Assembly (NCBI RefSeq): GCF_003781945.1
Contig: NZ_RJJW01000004.1
Span: forward strand, 1-64,000
Direction of reading: 5' to 3'
Source of the DNA: Halorubrum sp. CSM-61
GTDB taxonomy: Archaea; Halobacteriota; Halobacteria; Halobacteriales; Haloferacaceae
DNA: 64,000 nucleotides
Shown here: one piece after another, positions 33,017 to 43,365 of the stretch
How positions within the stretch are numbered: position 1 is the first letter of the stretch
Layout of the letters: every line of letters starts with the position of its first letter
Made by a program: the position numbers and the translations under genes
Notes under the pieces: generated by a model
What the model saw: only the letters and a program-made list of their open reading frames with translations
Databases searched by the model: none
What the model was told of the DNA's origin: nothing

Positions 33017-34753
33017 ATGAAGCGCCGGGACGTGGTATCAGGCGCCGGAGCATCGGTACTCGGAGTTGCCACGCTCGGTACCGCTACTAGCGTCTCAGCA
33101 CAAACCTCGTCGGACGTTTCGATTTCCTTCGACGACCAAACTACCGACGGCACCCGGCTAACCGTCGCTGAAATCAGTACGGATATTGATGCACAGTTCC
33201 GAATCCTGGATTCCGAATCAACCACCCTTGCTGGACCGATCTCGTTCGACGCCGGGACGGTTCACGGGGAGTACGAAGTGGACCTTCAGCCACCGCTCAC
33301 CGAGACCGAGACAGTCACCGCAAACCTCTACGACAACGATGGACAGGGAATCGCGCGGGAAGCCGCGCGCGTCACTATCAGCGGGGACCCGAACCTCGCA
33401 TCCGGGATCGAGCCGACTCTCATCGAGTCGGACTCAGATGCCGGGTTCAATTATCCGTACTTCCTTTATGCGCCGTCGCGGCGGGAAAACGAACAACAGG
33501 CCTCGATTCTTGTCCAGCCGAACAACAGCGGGCAAACTACAGACGATTTCGACGTACAGCGACGCTCGGCCCGGCGTCGTATCGAGAGTGGTATCTCGCG
33601 GACCGTCGCCGATCGGCTTTCGGTTCCGCTCCTGATCCCCGTCTTGCCGCGACCGGAGTCCGATCCCGTCGACTGGCGACACTACGTCCACGCGCTGGAC
33701 CGCCAAACGATGCAGATATCGGATGGTCCGCTAGAACGCGTCGATCGTCAGCTGCTACGGATGGCGGACGACGCCCGACAGCGCCTCAGCGAGCGGTCGT
33801 ATCCGGTCGACGATCAGGTGATGCTGAACGGATTCTCTGCCGCGGGCAACTTCGTCGACCGCTTCACGGTCCTCCATCCCGACCGTGTCCGTTCCGTCAC
33901 GGCCGGCGGTCTCAACGGAACGGCGATCCTCCCCCTCGAAGAAGCCGACGGTCACACGCTCGACTTTCATATCGGCATTGCTGATGTTGAAGCGCTGATC
34001 GGGGAATCCGTCGATCTGGACGCGCTGAATGAAACGAACCAGTTTCTCTACATGGGCGAAGACGACGGGAATGACACGATCCCGTACGACGACGCATGGA
34101 GCGACAGCATGCGTGAAATCGCACTGGACGTGTACGGGGAAGCGATGGTTGCGGACCGCTTCCCGACCTGCCAGCGAGCCTACGAGCAAGCTGGAGTAGA
34201 TGCCCAATTCAAAGTGTACGAAGGTGCTGGCCACTCTCCCCGCATGGCGCTCGAAGACATCGTTGAGTTCCACCAGCGAAGCCTCGATGGAGACGACGTT
34301 AGCGGGTTCGGTCAGCGACTGGGTCTCCGACCGGCGTTCGAGTACACGCCCGACCGGCCGGAGACCGGCGACGAAATCACGTTTGATGCGAGTTCGTCAG
34401 CACTCGGTGTGGGAGAGGTGCTCGCGTACACGTGGCAGCTTACTGATGAGGAGACCGCGGCTGGCGAGACGATCACGCATCAATTCACCGGGCCCGGTGA
34501 GTACGCTGTTACCCTGCGAGCGATAGATGACAAGGGTCGTATCGAAACGACCACGACGACGATTCGCGTCGGTGAGAACGAGACCGATCGTAGCCAAGAA
34601 TCGGATAACACTTCGACAGACGACCGGGAGCCGAATAACGCCACCACAGACGGTGCAGTGTCGTCAGAACCGACCCGCGGAACCACGCCCGGATTTGGCA
34701 TCGGGGTCGCTGTGACGAGTATCATCAGTACCTCACAAAGCATCCTCAGCTAG
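33017..34753 (+). CDS. Secreted alpha/beta-hydrolase with PKD domain, C-terminus cut by IS
   Basis: A 578-residue exported protein. Residues 1-30 are a Tat signal (KRRDVVSG, cleavage near SAQ). A short N-terminal beta domain (about 35-115) precedes an alpha/beta-hydrolase-like domain (about 125-430) with nucleophile elbow GFSAAGN and a late GHSP His. A PKD domain follows (about 435-525), then a Thr/Asn/Glu-rich stalk and PGFGIGVAV. The last motif is the start of a PGF-CTERM sorting signal, but the hydrophobic helix and basic end are missing. The final nine or so codons lie inside the ISH3-type IS. The product would probably be released instead of lipid-anchored. Activity unknown (esterase/depolymerase-like). 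Confidence 0.8.
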   Translation: MKRRDVVSGAGASVLGVATLGTATSVSAQTSSDVSISFDDQTTDGTRLTVAEISTDIDAQFRILDSESTTLAGPISFDAGTVHGEYEVDLQPPLTETETVTANLYDNDGQGIAREAARVTISGDPNLASGIEPTLIESDSDAGFNYPYFLYAPSRRENEQQASILVQPNNSGQTTDDFDVQRRSARRRIESGISRTVADRLSVPLLIPVLPRPESDPVDWRHYVHALDRQTMQISDGPLERVDRQLLRMADDARQRLSERSYPVDDQVMLNGFSAAGNFVDRFTVLHPDRVRSVTAGGLNGTAILPLEEADGHTLDFHIGIADVEALIGESVDLDALNETNQFLYMGEDDGNDTIPYDDAWSDSMREIALDVYGEAMVADRFPTCQRAYEQAGVDAQFKVYEGAGHSPRMALEDIVEFHQRSLDGDDVSGFGQRLGLRPAFEYTPDRPETGDEITFDASSSALGVGEVLAYTWQLTDEETAAGETITHQFTGPGEYAVTLRAIDDKGRIETTTTTIRVGENETDRSQESDNTSTDDREPNNATTDGAVSSEPTRGTTPGFGIGVAVTSIISTSQSILS

Positions 34754-36124
34754 CTGTTTCTGAAGCCTGAGTTCTGTGGTGGAGCGGTTGTGCTGGGTGG
34801 TCTTGACGAGAAGATCGTCGACGAACCGACGGAGAGCTGTCGCTGTCGGCGGCGGCTGCCGCCGACGCGACAGCGTCGCCACTCCTGGCGGAGGCTAGCC
34901 CGGTCGGAGATTAGCGAGTAAACCGGTCGTCTGGTGGTCGGTTTGCGGGGACGGCCCGACGCGTCGCGAGGGCCGTCCACGCTGCCCGTTGAATCATGTT
35001 GATGAACTCCTTGAACGACCACTTCCAGAGGCGACGCCCTCCACGGCGGGGCGTCGCCACGTACTCCCAGTGTAAATACCGCCAGACGTTCTGTAACAAC
35101 AAGCTCACCACGACGTACAGCAGCCGTACGACCGGATTTTGTGTCGAGGTCGTCGCAATACTTTGCTCGGAGAGTCGGTAGCTGGCCTCGATACCAAAGC
35201 GTTTCGCGTAGTGGTATCGAGCGTCTCGTGGTGAATTGATGAACGGCGCGTCAGCGGCGTAGCCGTGACGCGCCACTCCATGTTCGTCGTACCGTCCGTT
35301 TTGGTACGTACAGTCGATGTAGACGGGAAACTCGACGGTCCAGCTGTGACCGTCGAGTTTCGCCGTCATGTCGTGTTGAATCACGCGACTCCAGCCTTCC
35401 GAGAGTTCTTGCTTGATCGTCTGTCCCCAGCGGACGATCGGCATGACGTAGGCGTGGTTGTGTGCCTGAAGCAGCGTCAAACACTTGCTGTCGTAGAATT
35501 CGCGGTCAAGAAAGACGGCCTTGACCTCGAGGTCAAGGCCGTCGAGGATACCGAGAAACTCTGCGAGGACACTGCTGGCGGTGTCGCCGTCTTCGAGACG
35601 GCGCACCGCCAGCGTGTAGCGTTTGTTCTTCACACGCGCGTAGAGTGTGGCGTAGGCGTGGAACGCAGTCGTTCCACGCTTCGCTTGTGAGTGATACAAG
35701 CCGTCTGTCCCATCTTCGTCGCCGTAGTAGGGCCGCAGGTGGAGGTCTGAAACGACCTCCACCTGCTGGGGAAGGACGTCGAGGACGTCCTTCTGAAGGA
35801 GCGCGTTTCCGACTTGTTCGAGCGTCTCAAGATCGAACTTGGTGCGGAGATGGTAGAGAACCGAATTTTCGTGGGGAGCATCTTCGCTTTTCTCACAGAG
35901 CGTTGAGACCGAGGTCCCGTCGGCGCACGCGCCGACGAGGACCTCGTAGATGTCTTCAGCATCGAGTTCAGCGTTTTCAGCGAGTGTGAGGGCAACTTCC
36001 TCGTCAAGGGAGTTGACGAGGAAGTTAAGAAGCTGGTCCTCGTGAATTTCACCGTCTGCTTGCTTGGTATTAGACACACCTTCAGCAAGCAGACGTCTCA
36101 ACTAACCGGCTTTGTGATGTACTG
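34726..36124 (-). mobile_element. Complete ISH3-family insertion sequence
   Basis: About 1.4 kb, bounded by imperfect 16-bp terminal inverted repeats: CAGTACCTCACAAAGC at 34726 and CAGTACATCACAAAGC read inward from 36124 on the other strand. It carries one transposase gene. The length matches ISH3/ISH27-type elements. The flanks (ATCAT to the left, AGTCT to the right) do not form a perfect direct repeat, so the copy may have recombined or its target duplication has decayed. Confidence 0.85.
34911..36077 (-). CDS. ISH3-family transposase
   Basis: A 388-residue DDE transposase of the haloarchaeal ISH3 family. It begins SNTKQADGEIHEDQLLNFLVN and has the conserved acidic residues in VVSDLHLRPYYGDEDGTDG, AVFLDREFYDSKCL and the Glu of KRFGIEASYRL. 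The C-terminal RRAVPANRPPDDRFTR is family-typical. I use the GTG at 36077 because family members start at this residue. An ATG at 36101 would add eight residues. It appears intact, so the IS may still be active. Confidence 0.92.
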   Translation of the reverse strand: MSNTKQADGEIHEDQLLNFLVNSLDEEVALTLAENAELDAEDIYEVLVGACADGTSVSTLCEKSEDAPHENSVLYHLRTKFDLETLEQVGNALLQKDVLDVLPQQVEVVSDLHLRPYYGDEDGTDGLYHSQAKRGTTAFHAYATLYARVKNKRYTLAVRRLEDGDTASSVLAEFLGILDGLDLEVKAVFLDREFYDSKCLTLLQAHNHAYVMPIVRWGQTIKQELSEGWSRVIQHDMTAKLDGHSWTVEFPVYIDCTYQNGRYDEHGVARHGYAADAPFINSPRDARYHYAKRFGIEASYRLSEQSIATTSTQNPVVRLLYVVVSLLLQNVWRYLHWEYVATPRRGGRRLWKWSFKEFINMIQRAAWTALATRRAVPANRPPDDRFTR

Positions 36125-36149
36125 AGTCTTCATCGCAGAGTCACCGGCA

Positions 36150-36356: not shown

Positions 36357-37565
36357 TTAAATCGCGCAGCCGACCTCGCGGTACATGTAGTGGGTCATCG
36401 CGTAGACGCCGAGGATGATCCCCGCGCCGGCGAGGAAGGAGTGCACCGACAGCAGCGCGATCCCCGAGAAGAGGTTCGCGATGTTGCAGCCGGCCGCGAG
36501 CCGCGAGCCGACGCCCATCAGGAGGCCGCCGATCGCGTAGTTCGGGACCCGGTTCAGCTTGGGCTTCCGGACGCGGAAGTCGCCGGAGGCGTACGCGGCG
36601 AGGAAGGAGCCGACGATCAGCGACGCGATCATCACCATGTCGATGGTCAGCGAGATGTTCCCGTCGCGGAACAGGATCGACCCCCAGTACTCGACGCTCG
36701 CCACGTCGAACCCGGCCCCGGCCAGCAGGTAGCCCGCCCAGCGCGCCTCGCTGCCGGTGATCGCCCAGTGGCCGTGCACGTAGAACCAGAGGCTCGCGAT
36801 GAGCGCCATCGCCACGCCCGCGGTCCGCGCGTCCCACGAGTCGCGGAGCCGGACTTTCAGGGGCCGGTCGTCGCCGCGAATCCCGCGGACGTATTCGACG
36901 GTCCCGTCGGCGATGCCGCGCAGTCCGAGCGAGACGGCCGAGAGCGTCCGGGAGGCGCCGATCGCCGCCTGCGCGCGGGTGTCGGCCTCCACGCCGGTTC
37001 CGCCCGAGGGGTCGTCGGGGAGCCGGCTCCGCCCCTTCACGAACGCGTACGCGAGGGTGCCGAGCGCGACGGCGCCGGCCCCGGTGAGCGCCGGAGAGAA
37101 GGGGAGCGAGAGGTACAGCGTCTGCCCCTGGAACGGGTTCAGCGTCTGGAAGTAGTACGTCTCGGCGACGGGGAACGCGAACGCGAAGAGGACGTAGCCG
37201 ACGAACATGAAGAAGAGTACGAGCCAGAACTGGACGTACCCCTGTCCGGCGCGGTAGAGGGTGCCGGACGCGCAGCCGCCGGCGAGGGTCATGCCGAGCC
37301 CGAAGACGAAGCCGCCGAACAGCGAGCCGAGCCCCCACGCGGGCGTCCAGAACCCGCGGAAGTAGCCGAACGTGGCCTGCACGCTCCAGAACACCGTCAT
37401 CACGGCGAGCCCGGCGAGCAGCCCCTTCAGCACGCGGGTGTCCTTGAACGCGACGAAGTCGCGGAAGGCGCTGACGAAGCAGAACCGCGCCTTCTGTAAC
37501 AGGACCCCGAACGACAAGCCGACCGCGATAGAGACGCCGACGTAGGCGACGGGCGACAGCAACAT
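36357..37565 (-). CDS. YeeE/YedE-type sulfur (thiosulfate) permease
   Basis: A 402-residue membrane protein with about nine helices in two homologous halves. Each half has the cysteine-bearing pore motifs of thiosulfate uptake proteins: KARFCF and GGCASGTLYRAGQG in the first, AAGCNIANLFSG in the second. In bacterial TsuA-type proteins thiosulfate passes along these cysteines. The linker between the halves (about 190-240) is polar. It is divergent from the sulfur-gene operon starting at 37720, sharing a 154-bp intergenic region with an inverted repeat. Confidence 0.88.
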   Translation of the reverse strand: MLLSPVAYVGVSIAVGLSFGVLLQKARFCFVSAFRDFVAFKDTRVLKGLLAGLAVMTVFWSVQATFGYFRGFWTPAWGLGSLFGGFVFGLGMTLAGGCASGTLYRAGQGYVQFWLVLFFMFVGYVLFAFAFPVAETYYFQTLNPFQGQTLYLSLPFSPALTGAGAVALGTLAYAFVKGRSRLPDDPSGGTGVEADTRAQAAIGASRTLSAVSLGLRGIADGTVEYVRGIRGDDRPLKVRLRDSWDARTAGVAMALIASLWFYVHGHWAITGSEARWAGYLLAGAGFDVASVEYWGSILFRDGNISLTIDMVMIASLIVGSFLAAYASGDFRVRKPKLNRVPNYAIGGLLMGVGSRLAAGCNIANLFSGIALLSVHSFLAGAGIILGVYAMTHYMYREVGCAI

Positions 37566-37644
37566 TACCGGATCTCACGCTCCCGCACGTAAAGCGTCGC
37601 TGGAGACGGTAACGGCTCCCTCGTGTCGGAGAATGGCGCATCAT

Positions 37645-37670
37645 TTGCCCCTACGTAACACACGGGGCAA
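37645..37670. promoter_or_regulatory. Inverted repeat between divergent sulfur genes
   Basis: TTGCCCC (37645-37651) and GGGGCAA (37664-37670) are perfectly complementary, separated by 12 nt. The site lies between the divergent permease (start 37565) and lipoprotein (start 37720) genes, about 60-90 bp from each start. This suits an operator for a dimeric regulator controlling both. Confidence 0.55.
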
Positions 37671-37719
37671 CGAACGGGGAGGCCGAGGAGCCTTTAGCCG
37701 TGAGACGCGTTCCGTGGGT

Positions 37720-39102
37720 ATGAGCGAGGACTGCTGTTGCGGGACGACCGACGCGGATTCGCGTCCCTCGGGGGCCGACGCGGATCCCGGCTCCGCGAAG
37801 GGGAAGGCGAACCCCCGTCCCGCGAAGGGGAGCGATCTGGCGAACGACGACCGCCGGAACCCCTTCGCGGAGGGGATCGACCGGCGGCGCCTGCTCCAGG
37901 CGTCCGGGACCGTCGGCGCGACGACCGCGCTGGCGGGCTGTTCCGGCGGGGGCGGCGGGGACGGCGCCGACCCCGAACCGACGATGTTCGTGTTCAACAA
38001 CGGGGACCGGACCGTCAGCGTGATCGACACCGAGTCGGACGAGCTGCTCACCTCCGCGTTCCTCGGGACGACCGCCTCGTTCCCGGCCAACCAGTACTCG
38101 ACCGGGATCGACGCCGACCACGACGTGCTCTGGCTCAACGTCTCCGGCGGCGTCCGCGGTATCGACCAGCGAACCCTTGAGGAGGTCGCCTTCGTCGAGA
38201 CCGGCTACGGCCCGAACTACCCGAACGTCACTCCCGACGGGAACCACCTGCTGATCGCCTCGGGCGGAACCACCGGGATGGAGCCCGAGGGCGACGAGAA
38301 CCACGCCATCTTCCGCGTCGACGCCGACCGCGACAGCGAGACCTTCGGCGAGGTGACCGCGGAGATAGAGACCGGCTACGTCGGCCCCTGCGACATGACG
38401 CTCGGGCCCGACGGCGACTACGCGTTCGTCGTCGACGTGGCCGACGAGTCGATCCGCGTGCTGAGCGTCGACCCGTTCGAGACCGTCGCCCGCGTCGGCT
38501 CGGGAGAGCCGGTCACCGAGGGGAACGTCCTCCCCTTCATGTGTACCGCCGCGTTCGACGGGGAGTACGTCCTCGTCGAGAACGGGGAAGGGACGCTGGG
38601 CGGCGAGCCGGAGGTGCCCCGCGAGGGCTCCGAGAGCCTCTGGGACGTCTCCGACCCCGAGAACCCCGAGGAGGTCGGGAAGATCACCCGCGACGACGGG
38701 CTTCCCGGCGCGCCGATCACGAGCGAGGTGTCCCCGGACAACGAGGCCGCCTACCTCCTCATCCCCGGCGAGGGCGTCGGCGTGATCGACTTGGAGAGCT
38801 TCGAGTACGAGACGACGCTGGACGTGGGCGGAAGCAGCATCTCCGCGTCGTGGGGCCCGAACCGCGAGAAGCTGTACGTCCCCGTGCAGGACGCCAATCA
38901 GGTCGCCGTCGTCGAGCACGCGAGCCGTGAGGTCACGGAGACGATCGACGTCGGCGAGGCGCCCACGGGAGCCGCCGCCGGCACCGTCCGCCCGGAGGGC
39001 GACGCGGTGTCGCGGGTACAGGCGTCGCTCGCCTCGCTCGGGATCACCTTCGGCGAGATGGAGGCGTCGTGGTGTATGGACGACCACTGCTACTGCGGAT
39101 GA
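37720..39102 (+). CDS. Tat lipoprotein beta-propeller with Cys-rich ends
   Basis: A 460-residue protein. A long N-region starts with SEDCCCG (Cys5-7). The Tat motif RRRLL is at 55-59 and the lipobox LAGC gives lipidated Cys74. Residues about 85-435 are a YVTN/YncE-type seven-bladed beta-propeller (VSVIDTESDELL, TPDGNHLLIASGG, LGPDGDYAFVVDVAD). The C-terminus is WCMDDHCYCG (451-460) with three cysteines. It is probably attached to the outer face of the membrane. It is the first gene of a coupled three-gene operon beside a thiosulfate-type permease, so a role in binding sulfur compounds or metal is likely but unproven. CTTTAG at 37692-37697 is a plausible TATA element. Confidence 0.8.
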   Translation: MSEDCCCGTTDADSRPSGADADPGSAKGKANPRPAKGSDLANDDRRNPFAEGIDRRRLLQASGTVGATTALAGCSGGGGGDGADPEPTMFVFNNGDRTVSVIDTESDELLTSAFLGTTASFPANQYSTGIDADHDVLWLNVSGGVRGIDQRTLEEVAFVETGYGPNYPNVTPDGNHLLIASGGTTGMEPEGDENHAIFRVDADRDSETFGEVTAEIETGYVGPCDMTLGPDGDYAFVVDVADESIRVLSVDPFETVARVGSGEPVTEGNVLPFMCTAAFDGEYVLVENGEGTLGGEPEVPREGSESLWDVSDPENPEEVGKITRDDGLPGAPITSEVSPDNEAAYLLIPGEGVGVIDLESFEYETTLDVGGSSISASWGPNREKLYVPVQDANQVAVVEHASREVTETIDVGEAPTGAAAGTVRPEGDAVSRVQASLASLGITFGEMEASWCMDDHCYCG

Positions 39103-40199
39103 CGGGAAAGCATTCGAACGGTGACGGCGACGAGGGCGACTCCACCGAGAACGCCGACTCCACCGAGAACGCCACCCGCCGCGGCCTCCTGCGCGCGGCG
39201 GCGGGCGCGACCGTCGCGGGCGCGGCGAGCACGGCCGGCTGTCTCGGCGTGACGACCCCCGCCGACGTGGCGGCGCAGAACGAGGTGTCGGGGAACGTGG
39301 GCCACTTCGTCGGACCGAGCTGGCTCGCCGACAACCGCGAGGACACCGTCGTCCTCGACGCGCGCGACGCGGAGCGATTCCGCGAGGAGCGCATCTACCG
39401 CGCCCGACGCGTGCCGTTCGACGCGGTCACGGCCCGCGAGTCGATCGACGAGGGCGACGTTCCCGACGCCGACGCGATCGCGTCCGCGTTCGGCGAGATC
39501 GGCGTGGCGCCGGACGACGACGTGCTCGTCTACGGCGCGAGCGTCGGGTCGCGGGTCACCCGCGTCGCGTTCGCGCTCGCCGCGGTCGGCCACGAGGGGT
39601 CGATCCGCGTCCTCAACGGCGGACTCTCGGCCTGGAACGGTCGCCTCGGAACGGGGTCGCGAGACCGGGTCTCGCCGACCGACTACGAGCCGGAGCGGAA
39701 CGACTCGGCGTGGGTCACCCACGAGTGGCTCGCCGACCGCGTCGGCACGTTCAACGCGGACGGTCCGGGGCTCGTCGACGTGCGCGTGCCGGAGGCGTAC
39801 CTCGCCGCCGCAGGCTCCGACCTTCTGAACGAGGACCACGACCGCCACGGCCACCTCCCCGGCGCGGTCGACGTGCACTGGGTCGGGAACGTCGACGGCC
39901 GGCGGATGACCGACCCCGGCCGGCTCGTCCAGCTGTACGAGGTCGACGCCGAGCTGGACCGGAGCGGGACCGTCGTCGTCTACGGCGACGACAACGTGGA
40001 CCCGACCTCGACGTGGCTGACGCTGAAGGCGATCGGCTTCGAGGACGTGCGCCTGTACGACGGCGGCTTCGGCGAGTGGGCGAACGTCGACGGCGACCGC
40101 GGGCGGTACCCGGTCGAGACGGCGACGAACGTCGTGGTCGAGACGGACGGGAGCGTCGGCGGCGACGGCGACGGCGGCGACTTCTCCTGTACTGGATGA
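39099..40199 (+). CDS. Exported rhodanese-like lipoprotein lacking active-site Cys
   Basis: A 366-residue protein with a Tat signal (RRGLLRAAAG, 27-36) and lipobox STAGC (Cys48). Two rhodanese domains follow: about 75-185 (VVLDARDAERFREERIYRARRVPFD) and about 200-345 (GLVDVRVPEAYLA, HLPGAVDVHW, YDGGFGEWANV). At the loop where rhodaneses carry the catalytic Cys, the domains read YGASVGSRV and YGDDNVDPTST. Apart from lipidated Cys48 the only cysteine is Cys364 in the C-terminal FSCTG. The persulfide chemistry therefore cannot follow the standard route. Its start overlaps the upstream stop by 4 bp and its end overlaps the next gene by 4 bp. Confidence 0.85.
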   Translation: MTGKHSNGDGDEGDSTENADSTENATRRGLLRAAAGATVAGAASTAGCLGVTTPADVAAQNEVSGNVGHFVGPSWLADNREDTVVLDARDAERFREERIYRARRVPFDAVTARESIDEGDVPDADAIASAFGEIGVAPDDDVLVYGASVGSRVTRVAFALAAVGHEGSIRVLNGGLSAWNGRLGTGSRDRVSPTDYEPERNDSAWVTHEWLADRVGTFNADGPGLVDVRVPEAYLAAAGSDLLNEDHDRHGHLPGAVDVHWVGNVDGRRMTDPGRLVQLYEVDAELDRSGTVVVYGDDNVDPTSTWLTLKAIGFEDVRLYDGGFGEWANVDGDRGRYPVETATNVVVETDGSVGGDGDGGDFSCTG

Positions 40200-41200
40200 C
40201 TTCGTCCATCGACCGCGTCCTCGCGGTTCCGTGCGAGGGCGACGACCTGCTGGCCCTGTTCGCGCTCGATACGGGGGACCGGCTCGGCGAGGTCCCGGTC
40301 GGGAGCCATCCGGTCCACGCGACGACGTGCCGCGGGCGGACCGTCGTCGCCACCATGGGCGAGCGGGCCGTCACCGCGGTCGGCTCGGGCGGAGAGGTGA
40401 CGAGGGTCGAGACCGGCGTGTTGGGGCCCTCGCACTTCGCGACCGCGAACGGGGAGCTGTACGTCTCCTGTTCCGCCGGCGACGCCCTCGCGGTCATCGA
40501 TCCCGAGCGCCTGACGCTCGTCGACCGCGTCGCCGTCGGCGCGGAGCCGCACGAGATCGCCGTCTCTCCCGACGGCGACCGGCTCTACTCCGGGAGCCGC
40601 CGCGAGGGCGTCGTCGACGTGGTGGACACCGAGAGCCGCGAGCGGATCGGCGCGATCGACGCCGGGCCGGACGCCCGCGTGCAGGGCGTCGCGGTCTCGC
40701 CGAACGGGGAGCGCGGGTACGCTGTCGACCAACGGGGCGCCCGCGTGGTCGCCTTCGATCCCGGGGGAGACGCCGGGTCGCTCTCCGACGGAGAACCGAT
40801 CCGCCGCGAGGCCGCGGTCGGCGCCGACCCGTACGACCTCGTCGCGACCGCGGACCGCGTGTTCGTCCCCGGCCGCGGCGACGGGGTCGTCCACGAGTTC
40901 GACCGGGACTTGGAGCCGATCGCGGTCCACGAAGGGTTCTCGCGCCCCGTCGACGTCTTCGAGGTCGCCGGCGAGCGGTGGGTGCTCGACGCGGCCGCCG
41001 CCCGCCTCCGGTCGCTCGACGGCGCGGTCGTCGAGACGGCGGCGCCGGGACTGGTCGCGACGCCCGTCGGCGGAGCGGGAGACGGGCGGCTCGCCGTCTC
41101 GCACTACGACGACGACCGCGTCTCCCTCGTCGACGTCGACTCCGGGACCGTCTGGACCGCGGAGTCGCCGGCGTACCCGTTCGGGTCGGTCGTGGTCTGA
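40196..41200 (+). CDS. Cytoplasmic YVTN-type beta-propeller protein
   Basis: A 334-residue beta-propeller without a signal peptide. Repeated blades include VAVGAEPHEIAVSPDGDRLYSGS and GVAVSPNGERGYAVDQRGARVVAF. It contains three cysteines, at VPCEGDD, ATTCRGR and YVSCSAG. Its ATG overlaps the rhodanese-like gene's stop by 4 bp, so the three genes are translated as a unit: two exported lipoproteins and one apparently intracellular propeller. The function is unknown; an adaptor or sulfur-binding role is suggested only by the context. Confidence 0.8.
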   Translation: MTSSIDRVLAVPCEGDDLLALFALDTGDRLGEVPVGSHPVHATTCRGRTVVATMGERAVTAVGSGGEVTRVETGVLGPSHFATANGELYVSCSAGDALAVIDPERLTLVDRVAVGAEPHEIAVSPDGDRLYSGSRREGVVDVVDTESRERIGAIDAGPDARVQGVAVSPNGERGYAVDQRGARVVAFDPGGDAGSLSDGEPIRREAAVGADPYDLVATADRVFVPGRGDGVVHEFDRDLEPIAVHEGFSRPVDVFEVAGERWVLDAAAARLRSLDGAVVETAAPGLVATPVGGAGDGRLAVSHYDDDRVSLVDVDSGTVWTAESPAYPFGSVVV

Positions 41201-41218
41201 TCGGTCGCGGTCCGACGG

Positions 41219-41361
41219 GCGGTGATCCGACCGTCACCGACGAGCACGGCCGCGACCGCTACGAGGCGACGGACACGGTCGAGGGCGCGACCGTCGGCCG
41301 CTTCCCGGACCTCTACGAGGCGCTGGGCGAGGTCGGCGTCGACCACGTGACCACGCTCTGA
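41219..41361 (+). other. Coding-like stretch with no start codon
   Basis: The frame ending at 41361 reads as acidic, haloarchaeal-type protein over about 45 residues (TDEHGRDRYEATDTVEGATV, then GRFPDLYEALGEVGVDHVTTL). There is no in-frame ATG, GTG or TTG between the previous stop region and this stretch; only CTG is available. It may be the remnant of a degraded gene, a frameshifted extension of the propeller, or a small protein with a non-standard start. Confidence 0.35.
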
Positions 41362-41462
41362 GACCGTCCGCGTCCCCGCGGCTCGGTGCGAGTCCCCGCG
41401 GCTCGGTGCGAGCCCCGCACGTCGGCCGGAGCTTCATGCCTCCGGGCGTGCTTTGGAGACGC

Positions 41463-42926
41463 ATGCAGGAGTACGACTTCCTCGTCATCGGCTCGGGATC
41501 GGGACTGGACGTGGCGAACGCGATGGCCGGCCGGGGGAACTCGGTCGCGGTCGTCGAGGAGGGGCGGCTCGGCGGCACGTGTCTCAACCGCGGCTGTATC
41601 CCCTCGAAGCGGCTCCTCTATCACGCCGACGTGATGGAGACGATCGAGCGGGCCGGGGAGTTCGAGATCGACGCCGAGGTGACCGACGTCGACTTCGCGG
41701 AGATCGTCCGGAAGGTGAACGAGGACGTCTCGGAGAGCTCCGAGTCGATCCGGCGGGGGCTGGAGTCCTCGGACGCCCACGACCTGTTCTCGGGAACCGG
41801 GCAGTTCGTCGACGACCGCACGGTCGAGGTCGTCGACGGCGACGACGAGGGCGCCGCGCTGCGGGCCGACACCGTCCTGATCGCCACCGGCACGCGTCCC
41901 TCGATCCCGCCGATAGAGGGGATCGAGGAGGTGGACCACCTCACGAGCACGGAGGCGCTCCGGCTGGAGGAGCCGCCGGACCGCCTCGTGATCGTCGGCG
42001 GCGGATACATCGCGGCCGAACTCGGCCACTTCTTCGATACCTTCGGCAGCGACGTGACGATCGTCGGCCGACGCGAGCACCTCCTCCCGGAGGCGGACGC
42101 GGAGGTCGGCGAGGCGTTCACCGACCGGTACGCCGACCGGTTCGACGTGTACGCCGGCTACGAGGCCGTCGCGGCCGACGAGGATGACGGCGAGGTGACG
42201 GTCGAGGCCCGGCCGTACCCCGAGGCCGACTCGGTCCGCGCGGGCGGGGAGACGGTCGGTGCGCCCGACGAGGCCGAGGACGTGACCGTCACCGGCGACG
42301 AACTGCTCGTCGCGACGGGCCGCCGACCGAACACGGATATGCTGAACCTCGACGCTACGGGCGTGGAGACCGACGTGAACGGCTTCGTCGAGACCGACGA
42401 GTACCTGCGAACCGACGCGGAGGGCGTGTGGGCGCTCGGCGACGTGGTCGGCGAGTACCTGCTGAAACACAGCGCGAACCACGAGGCGAAGGCCGTGGTC
42501 CGGAACCTGCTCGGCGACGAGCCGGAGCCGGTCGACTACTCGGCGATGCCGTTCGCGGTGTTCGCCTCGCCCGAGGTAGCGGGGGTCGGCGCGCGCGAGC
42601 GGGACCTCCGAGAGGCCGACGCCGAGTACGCCACCCGCACCTACGCGTACGACGAGACGGCCCGCGGGAGTGCGATGCACGCCGACGGCTTCGTGAAGGT
42701 GCTCATCGATCTGGACGGCGAGATCGAGGGCTGTCACGTCGTCGGTCCCGAGGCGTCGAACCTGATCGAGGAGGTCGTCGTCGCGATGACCGCGGGCTCG
42801 GGGACCGTCGCGGACATTCGCGACGCGGTCCACATCCACCCCGCGCTCTCAGAAGTGGTCGATCGGGCCTTCTCGGGTCAGTTCTCGCGGGGCGGCGGCG
42901 GACACGATCACAACCACCACTCGTGA
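41463..42926 (+). CDS. FAD-dependent pyridine nucleotide-disulfide oxidoreductase
   Basis: A 487-residue flavoprotein of the dihydrolipoamide dehydrogenase/mercuric reductase/mycothione reductase family. FAD-binding VIGSGSGLDVA, redox-active disulfide Cys40/Cys45 (GGTCLNRGCIPSK), NAD(P)-binding VIVGGGYIAAELGHFF and the dimer-interface HIHPALSEV (His-Glu catalytic pair) are all present. The His-rich tail (GGGGHDHNHHS) could bind metal. No lipoate-dependent complex genes adjoin it. Given the sulfur cluster on both sides, a thiol or persulfide disulfide reductase role is plausible; gamma-glutamylcystine reductase is an alternative. Confidence 0.85.
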   Translation: MQEYDFLVIGSGSGLDVANAMAGRGNSVAVVEEGRLGGTCLNRGCIPSKRLLYHADVMETIERAGEFEIDAEVTDVDFAEIVRKVNEDVSESSESIRRGLESSDAHDLFSGTGQFVDDRTVEVVDGDDEGAALRADTVLIATGTRPSIPPIEGIEEVDHLTSTEALRLEEPPDRLVIVGGGYIAAELGHFFDTFGSDVTIVGRREHLLPEADAEVGEAFTDRYADRFDVYAGYEAVAADEDDGEVTVEARPYPEADSVRAGGETVGAPDEAEDVTVTGDELLVATGRRPNTDMLNLDATGVETDVNGFVETDEYLRTDAEGVWALGDVVGEYLLKHSANHEAKAVVRNLLGDEPEPVDYSAMPFAVFASPEVAGVGARERDLREADAEYATRTYAYDETARGSAMHADGFVKVLIDLDGEIEGCHVVGPEASNLIEEVVVAMTAGSGTVADIRDAVHIHPALSEVVDRAFSGQFSRGGGGHDHNHHS

Positions 42927-43008
42927 TACGTCACCGCATACCGAATCGGCGTCCCGGACACACACCCGCGGGTGGGTTTTGTAGGGGTGACGCTTATAAG
43001 CGAACACG

Positions 43009-43365
43009 ATGGCAAAAGCGGCAATCGTGATCCTCGCCGGCAACGAATCGCACGCCGACTACGGTCGCCTCGCGAACGGGCTCGAGGCCGCTAAGGAGTT
43101 CGCCGAGAACGACGACGACGAGCTGGAACTCATCTTCGACGGCGCCGGGACCCAGTGGATCCCGGAGCTCGAAGACGAGGAGAGCGACTACCACGAGCTG
43201 TACCAGGCGGTCCGCGACGACGCCGCGGTCTGTGACTACTGTTCCGGCGCCTTCGGCGTCGACGAGGCGGTCGCGGACGCCGGGCTCGTCACCCTCGACG
43301 AGTACGACGGGCACCCGAGCGTCCGCTCGCTCGTCGACGACGACTACGAGATCATCACGTTCTGA
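43009..43365 (+). CDS. DsrE-family protein
   Basis: A 118-residue protein of the DsrE/DsrF fold: KAAIVILAGNESHADYGRLANGLEAAKEF at the start and a Cys pair Cys75/Cys78 (VCDYCSGAFG) at the position where DsrE-like sulfur carriers have their active cysteine. Such proteins accept and pass on persulfide sulfur. Its position at the end of the sulfur cluster supports the same role here. TTATAA at 42994 is too close to the ATG for a leaderless promoter; TTTTGTA at 42977 has the usual spacing. Confidence 0.82.
   Translation: MAKAAIVILAGNESHADYGRLANGLEAAKEFAENDDDELELIFDGAGTQWIPELEDEESDYHELYQAVRDDAAVCDYCSGAFGVDEAVADAGLVTLDEYDGHPSVRSLVDDDYEIITF

Follow-up and report, generated by a model that had tools for sequence, protein, structure and literature searches.

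A conserved haloarchaeal module associates a YeeE-type channel with a lipoprotein rhodanese that lacks its catalytic cysteine

In a 64,000-nt stretch of DNA from Halorubrum sp. CSM-61 (NZ_RJJW01000004.1, positions 1 to 64,000; hereinafter the window), we found a conserved module of four genes, which code for a YeeE/YedE-type channel (YeeE), a twin-arginine translocation (Tat) lipoprotein with a YVTN propeller (prop1), a second Tat lipoprotein with two rhodanese domains (the pseudo-rhodanese; gene rhod), and a cytoplasmic propeller (prop2; Table 1). Of the readings considered, import of sulfur to make cysteine seems the likeliest, and we consider the chances about even that thiosulfate (or sulfane sulfur) is taken up and turned into cysteine by a haloarchaeal pathway whose membrane and outside half lies in the window. 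A preliminary description of the window, made from the sequence alone, had combined these genes with those of a downstream flavoprotein and a DsrE-like protein of 118 aa (DsrE-118) into a single six-gene sulfur-handling unit. Family scans bore out the positions and identities of all six genes, and the 4-bp overlaps noted for the three genes at 37720–41200 are present as two ATGA overlaps (39099–39102 and 40196–40199); the unit of six, however, was drawn wrongly.

Results

Conservation and joint decay of the four-gene module

We took the neighborhoods of 44 prop1 relatives, called the genes therein, and counted occurrences in a sample of 242 Halobacteria genomes. Of these genomes, 13 (eleven Halorubrum, including that of the window, along with genomes G047 and G030) have intact genes for YeeE, prop1, the pseudo-rhodanese and prop2 side by side, with a shared order and orientation. 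A scan with the pseudo-rhodanese alignment recovered 23 haloarchaeal loci, most of them with identical gene order, including Halobellus clavatus and metagenome-assembled genomes (MAGs). prop2 is confined to 15 genomes, namely the above 13, G029, in which a rhod-prop2 pair adjoins YeeE, and the decayed G135, which retains a remnant; it occurs only in genomes with YeeE or a remnant thereof (p about 3 × 10–12). Cysteine synthase is present in 13/13 module genomes and in about 20 of the 242 overall (p=7 × 10–17). Both p-values treat genomes as independent and ignore shared ancestry, eleven of the 13 module genomes being from one genus. Stronger evidence than these p-values comes from the distant members with the same set of genes (G047, G030, Halobellus, and the MAGs) and from the coordinated decay of the module partners: YeeE, prop1 and prop2 are all broken in G135 (locus L182), while in G038 (L183) the module is absent, the cysteine synthase broken and TusA shortened. 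All four genes in the window are under purifying selection (dN/dS 0.12–0.36), which rules out their being in decay themselves. The module is present twice, on two contigs, in the MAG G206 (L075, L076), and a tandem pair of YeeE genes is seen at L166.

A thiosulfate-type channel sharing a divergent region with prop1

YeeE matches PF04143 (Sulf_transp; 194 bits) in two stretches that span its whole length, covering both halves, and aligns with YeeE from Spirochaeta thermophila (StYeeE, 6LEO; E=7 × 10–31). The pore cysteines mentioned in the preliminary description were recovered in this alignment as C29, C98 and C360, which correspond to the StYeeE pore cysteines C22, C91 and C293 (PMC11073785). 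The protein scores below the curated TsuA models (143.7 versus 400 bits and 95.3 versus 645 bits) and also matches, again below the cut-off, the YedE/FdhT selenium model. Hence, on sequence it appears to be a divergent relative of the StYeeE/TsuA family, below equivalog status, and membership in this family points to thiosulfate as the probable substrate. A fourth cysteine, C400 (in GCAI), three residues from the C-terminus, recurs in haloarchaeal YeeE proteins. The window's genome (G000) additionally codes for a separate half-size YeeE/YedE pair in two copies (L128 on contig C22 and L129 on C11), in the company of TusA, TauE-like genes and a protein that is rhodanese-like over one stretch.

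The genes for YeeE and prop1 diverge from a region of 154 bp with a TTTA box 27–28 nt upstream of each start codon and an inverted repeat of 7 bp (TTGCCCC-N12-GGGGCAA) at 37645–37670; the spacing of these elements and the sequence blocks of the region recur in 13 loci. This arrangement would suit shared control of the two genes, albeit without proving it, rather than the independent regulation of the permease that the preliminary description had held would count against its proposal.

A rhodanese with its only free cysteine on a C-terminal tail

The pseudo-rhodanese shares its two rhodanese domains (PF00581, two stretches) with the double-domain thiosulfate sulfurtransferases (3HWI; E=6 × 10–17 for the homology), but differs from these enzymes in having glycine in place of the catalytic cysteine and a cysteine on its C-terminal tail. 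This glycine (VVVYGDDNVDPTS) occupies the catalytic position of the active-site loop in 10 of the 11 aligned copies, a loss overlooked in the preliminary description. In the window, its sole cysteine beyond that of the lipobox is C364, located in the GGDGDGGDFSCTG tail, and all 14 tabulated module copies have exactly two cysteines, one serving as the lipid anchor and the other lying three residues from the end. The tail is rich in glycine and aspartate and ends in FSCTG (FTCN in two MAG copies). The cysteine persists in L072 and L118, whose rhod and prop2 genes are free of overlap, ruling out an artefact of gene overlap. In a relative with 40% identity, the G029 copy, the tail ends in FSC and a cysteine is also found at the catalytic position, and a paralog in the window's genome, encoded on C11, has the ordinary form, with the catalytic cysteine present and the tail cysteine absent. 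The rhod-prop2 pair of G029 is preceded by three consecutive further lipoprotein double rhodaneses, beside YeeE and TusA (L118:10209–15984).

Such a pattern of cysteines would be left behind if the working thiol had been relocated. The pattern recalls the SoxYZ carrier with its GGCGG arm and the SoxT importers (PMC6067878, PMC11582611), to which the pseudo-rhodanese may be likened in the single free cysteine on its glycine-rich C-terminal tail and in its location beside a YeeE-type channel; in contrast to SoxY, its body is a lipid-anchored double rhodanese and its tail ends in FSCTG rather than GGCGG. Family scans detected only rhodanese domains in it and no SoxY domain, and the likeness would accordingly be one of working, not of descent. 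A relay from SoxY to SoxT (YeeE) has been considered by Li 2024 (PMC11582611). We tentatively propose, as a possibility that falls short of even chances, that the pseudo-rhodanese is a rhodanese turned SoxY-like carrier, which lost the catalytic cysteine, kept one on a C-terminal arm and would hand outside sulfur straight to YeeE. Such a putative carrier arm would be an attractive interpretation of the conserved tail.

The propellers

The Tat lipoprotein signals noted in the preliminary description are visible in both the pseudo-rhodanese and prop1, the latter matching the Pfam TAT_signal model at only E=0.02. Four cysteines are invariant in prop1, C224 and the C-terminal C452, C457 and C459 (CxxxxCxCG), and its cysteine tail (residues 449–460) is disordered in the predicted structure. 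The structure predicted for prop2 (pLDDT 92) is an eight-bladed propeller, and the repeat positions of its invariant residues, C13, C92, H41, H80, H119 and H303, suggest that these probably lie on loops of one face. The fold of prop2 is that of the cytochrome cd1/NirN/NirF propellers, without the cytochrome domain (d1 domain of cytochrome cd1: VIA Z 31.6, rmsd 3.1, 320 aligned residues, 11% identity). However, fold searches with prop1 and prop2 returned the general propeller fold only, cd1 nitrite reductase topping the natural matches of prop2 with unrelated propellers nearly equal, and we rejected them as a guide to function. The roles that we assign to both propellers in the pathway are putative.

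prop1 also occurs alone in about 28 genomes, unlinked to YeeE (Fisher p=1), and a specific partnership of the two is hence unsupported. Among these lone relatives (L080–L091, L093–L108), some (L083–L091) have a conserved group of unrelated genes as neighbors.

The inner half of the proposed pathway and an insertion sequence

In relatives, the genes past YeeE code for a single-domain rhodanese, TusA, a cysteine synthase, a SAMP/ThiS-like carrier, an E1 and a JAMM protease. The window's genome has these inner-half genes intact on contig C7 (L117), and the carrier, E1, cysteine synthase and JAMM protease are found together both there and in the relatives. In family scans the E1 exceeds the UbaA cut-off and the JAMM protein that of haloarchaeal desampylase, while the carrier is SAMP1-like, below the cut-off, and TusA is closest to YeeD, below the cut-off of the YeeD model. 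The carrier ends one or two residues past its GG (GGR, GGQ or GGSR; L117:7390–7653, L067, L122), implying that activation would first require trimming, for which the JAMM protease is a possible agent.

The separation of the two halves is accounted for by an insertion sequence (IS) of 1401 bp. Contig C7 terminates in the first bases of this element, its flank ending in GTC, and the flank on the YeeE side begins with the same 3 bp, as a target duplication would; thus, the insertion took place between YeeE and the gene for the rhodanese. The window's join to the esterase side reflects either IS–IS recombination or an assembly error. Copies of the IS are present on C2, C5, C7, C11, C12, C16 and C21, and their flanks mostly pair across copies and not within them (e.g., TCA on the left in the window and on the right of the C12 copy), as after IS–IS recombination or misassembly.

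The composition of the inner half bears on an alternative in which thiosulfate is imported for cysteine synthesis, with the pseudo-rhodanese and the propellers being sensors or scaffolds: the tail cysteine would sense outside sulfane sulfur, and YeeE and prop2 would signal inward. It would be in line with the loss of the catalytic cysteine, which suits binding and not catalysis, with the common use of propellers as docking platforms, and with SoxT1B, a YeeE relative in Hyphomicrobium that signals instead of feeding oxidation (PMC11582611). Nevertheless, the loci compared show no recurrent transcription regulator in the module, and its association with cysteine synthase, TusA and E1 speaks for flux and not for sensing alone; we consider this alternative unlikely.

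The downstream flavoprotein and DsrE-type genes

The flavoprotein, a member of the pyridine nucleotide-disulfide oxidoreductase family with a CLNRGC (CxxxxC) motif, may be a bis-gamma-glutamylcystine reductase, an activity suggested for haloarchaeal lipoyl-dehydrogenase homologs (PMC7278568). That it and DsrE-118 are the inside partners of the module agrees with the adjacency of the genes in the window and with that of the flavoprotein and prop2 in L067, L070 and the Halorubrum kocurii locus L155. However, DsrE-118 occurs in 119 of the 242 genomes and adjoins the module in some Halorubrum only, the two genes also form a pair in loci devoid of the module and YeeE (L100, L101, L106), and the distant members L079, L092, L162, L163 and L165 have neither of them in the module. 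This distribution largely refutes the unit of six, which we rejected and to which we give a very slight residual chance; we judge both to be widespread neighbors outside the module.

The module's own DsrE-type gene is a different one, of the SaoD/DsrE family, which follows prop2 in seven clusters of the first set and codes for 127 aa (122 aa in G047). In the window it survives as a stump: the first 86 of its 127 codons have been deleted and the remaining 41 are 85% identical, and no other copy was found in the window's genome. The adjacency of prop2 to the flavoprotein and DsrE-118 in the window follows the loss of this gene. The postulated relay to the DsrE at 43009 finds no support: the inside acceptor in relatives is the set of TusA, rhodanese, SAMP-like carrier, E1, cysteine synthase and JAMM protease together with the distinct DsrE-type protein (NF040913). 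Co-occurrence of the six families across haloarchaea, the check proposed in the preliminary description, holds for the first four, which recur together, and fails for the flavoprotein and DsrE-118. Of the sulfur unit itself, the association of the extracytoplasmic proteins with the channel is supported by their very tight co-occurrence and the shared divergent, putative promoter region.

The SaoD/DsrE affinity of the lost gene, along with the match of YeeE to the YedE/FdhT model and the C-terminal CxxxxCxCG of prop1, could alternatively indicate a module that handles selenium, tellurium or an organometal, with YeeE as the importer and the cysteine-rich tails binding the imported species. We regard this as quite improbable: YeeE matches the TsuA model too, and the cysteine synthase, TusA and SAMP-like carrier in nearly all full clusters point to sulfur assimilation.

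Table 1. Features of the module and its surroundings in the window
Feature	Position	Strand	Basis and remarks
YeeE/TsuA-type channel (YeeE/YedE)	36357..37565	-	402 aa; PF04143 E=4 × 10–57; aligned with S. thermophila YeeE 6LEO
Shared divergent promoter region	37566..37719	.	Spacing and sequence blocks; promoter role putative
prop1, Tat lipoprotein, YVTN propeller	37720..39102	+	Family scan; invariant cysteines
Pseudo-rhodanese (rhod), Tat lipoprotein, two rhodanese domains	39099..40199	+	PF00581 E=7 × 10–30
prop2, cytoplasmic eight-bladed propeller	40196..41200	+	Predicted structure; invariant cysteines and histidines
Stump of the module's SaoD/DsrE-family gene	41236..41361	+	Last 41/127 codons; family NF040913
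Lipoyl-dehydrogenase/mycothione-reductase-type flavoprotein	41463..42926	+	NF004946, 834 bits (cut-off 634); neighbor, judged non-member
DsrE-118, DsrE-like 118-aa protein	43009..43365	+	22.6 bits versus cut-off of 22.7; judged non-member
Insertion sequence, 1401 bp	34725..36125	-	Near-identical copies: at least seven in the genome; insertion site flanked by YeeE and the single-domain rhodanese gene

Discussion

Taken as sulfur import for cysteine synthesis, the module and its inner half suggest a pathway in which the substrate and every transfer step are putative. On the outside, the lipid-anchored pseudo-rhodanese would act in the manner of SoxY: its flexible C-terminal tail would carry sulfur, held by the tail cysteine, and offer it to YeeE, while prop1, with its four invariant cysteines, would help to load or reduce it. 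YeeE would then conduct thiosulfate, or the sulfane sulfur thereof, along the three cysteines of its pore. Inside, the YeeD/TusA-like protein and the single-domain rhodanese would accept the sulfur, the UbaA-type E1 would load it as a thiocarboxylate on the SAMP-like carrier, on which the cysteine synthase would make cysteine, and the JAMM protease would release the product. prop2 might be a cytoplasmic partner that docks at the channel or relays sulfur from it.

The module is a new combination of known parts: a thiosulfate-type channel, a cysteine pathway using a ubiquitin-like carrier, and a new candidate for the outside carrier. To our knowledge, no extracytoplasmic partners are known for the YeeE–YeeD (TsuA–TsuB) systems. 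The uptake systems of this type in E. coli and S. thermophila resemble the module in the three pore cysteines and the YeeD/TusA-like partner gene (PMC11073785). To these, the module adds the lipoprotein pseudo-rhodanese, the propellers and the extra C-terminal cysteine of YeeE. The inner half has counterparts in bacterial operons of types 4c–4e, typified by the mycobacterial CysO–CysM–Mec pathway. These ThiS/MoaD-E1-JAB-cysteine-synthase operons with SirA provide precedents for a SAMP/MoaD-like carrier, E1, JAMM protease, cysteine synthase and SirA/TusA encoded as a set (Iyer 2006, PMC1779556). The haloarchaeal version differs from them in its UbaA-type E1, its separate rhodanese, its coupling to YeeE and not to sulfate transport, and the one or two residues that follow the GG of its carrier. 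Archaeal Jab genes are reported to be rarely linked to those for ubiquitin-like proteins (Makarova and Koonin 2010).

A dissimilatory use of the imported sulfur, in which sulfur oxidation outside would feed electrons while YeeE imports sulfane sulfur for oxidation, has a parallel in SoxT1A of Hyphomicrobium (PMC11582611). This has very little to recommend it here: no Sox, Hdr or Dsr oxidation genes were recognised near any copy of the module, where cysteine synthase is found instead. Specifically, SoxXA, SoxB and SoxYZ were not recognised among the genes within about 8 kb of the module, a search that did not extend to the whole genome.

Several points weigh against import of thiosulfate for cysteine synthesis by way of a SoxY-like arm. 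Relatives of YeeE carry selenium and other forms of sulfur too. The pseudo-rhodanese and SoxY are not homologous, and the tail cysteine might serve for a disulfide or for metal binding instead. prop1, in being statistically unlinked to YeeE, need not have a role related to thiosulfate. The cysteine synthase scores almost alike for cysM (217.6 bits) and cysK (216.3 bits) and hence could not be assigned to CysM, and the strain studied here does without the module's own DsrE-type gene.

Within the literature collection searched, we found no paper on this haloarchaeal cluster or on a haloarchaeal route from thiosulfate to cysteine, and a search on SaoD yielded nothing of relevance. How sulfur is delivered from outside carriers to YeeE/SoxT channels was raised as an open question by Li 2024 (PMC11582611), and the cluster offers a compact candidate for such delivery, with one carrier bearing a single usable cysteine beside one channel. 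If this proposal is true, the pseudo-rhodanese would supply the extracytoplasmic partner so far missing for a YeeE-type importer, one that is archaeal and feeds cysteine synthesis on a ubiquitin-like carrier. The module also suggests that haloarchaea have a thiosulfate-to-cysteine route, and that UbaA, SAMP-like and JAMM proteins may there serve biosynthesis beside protein tagging.

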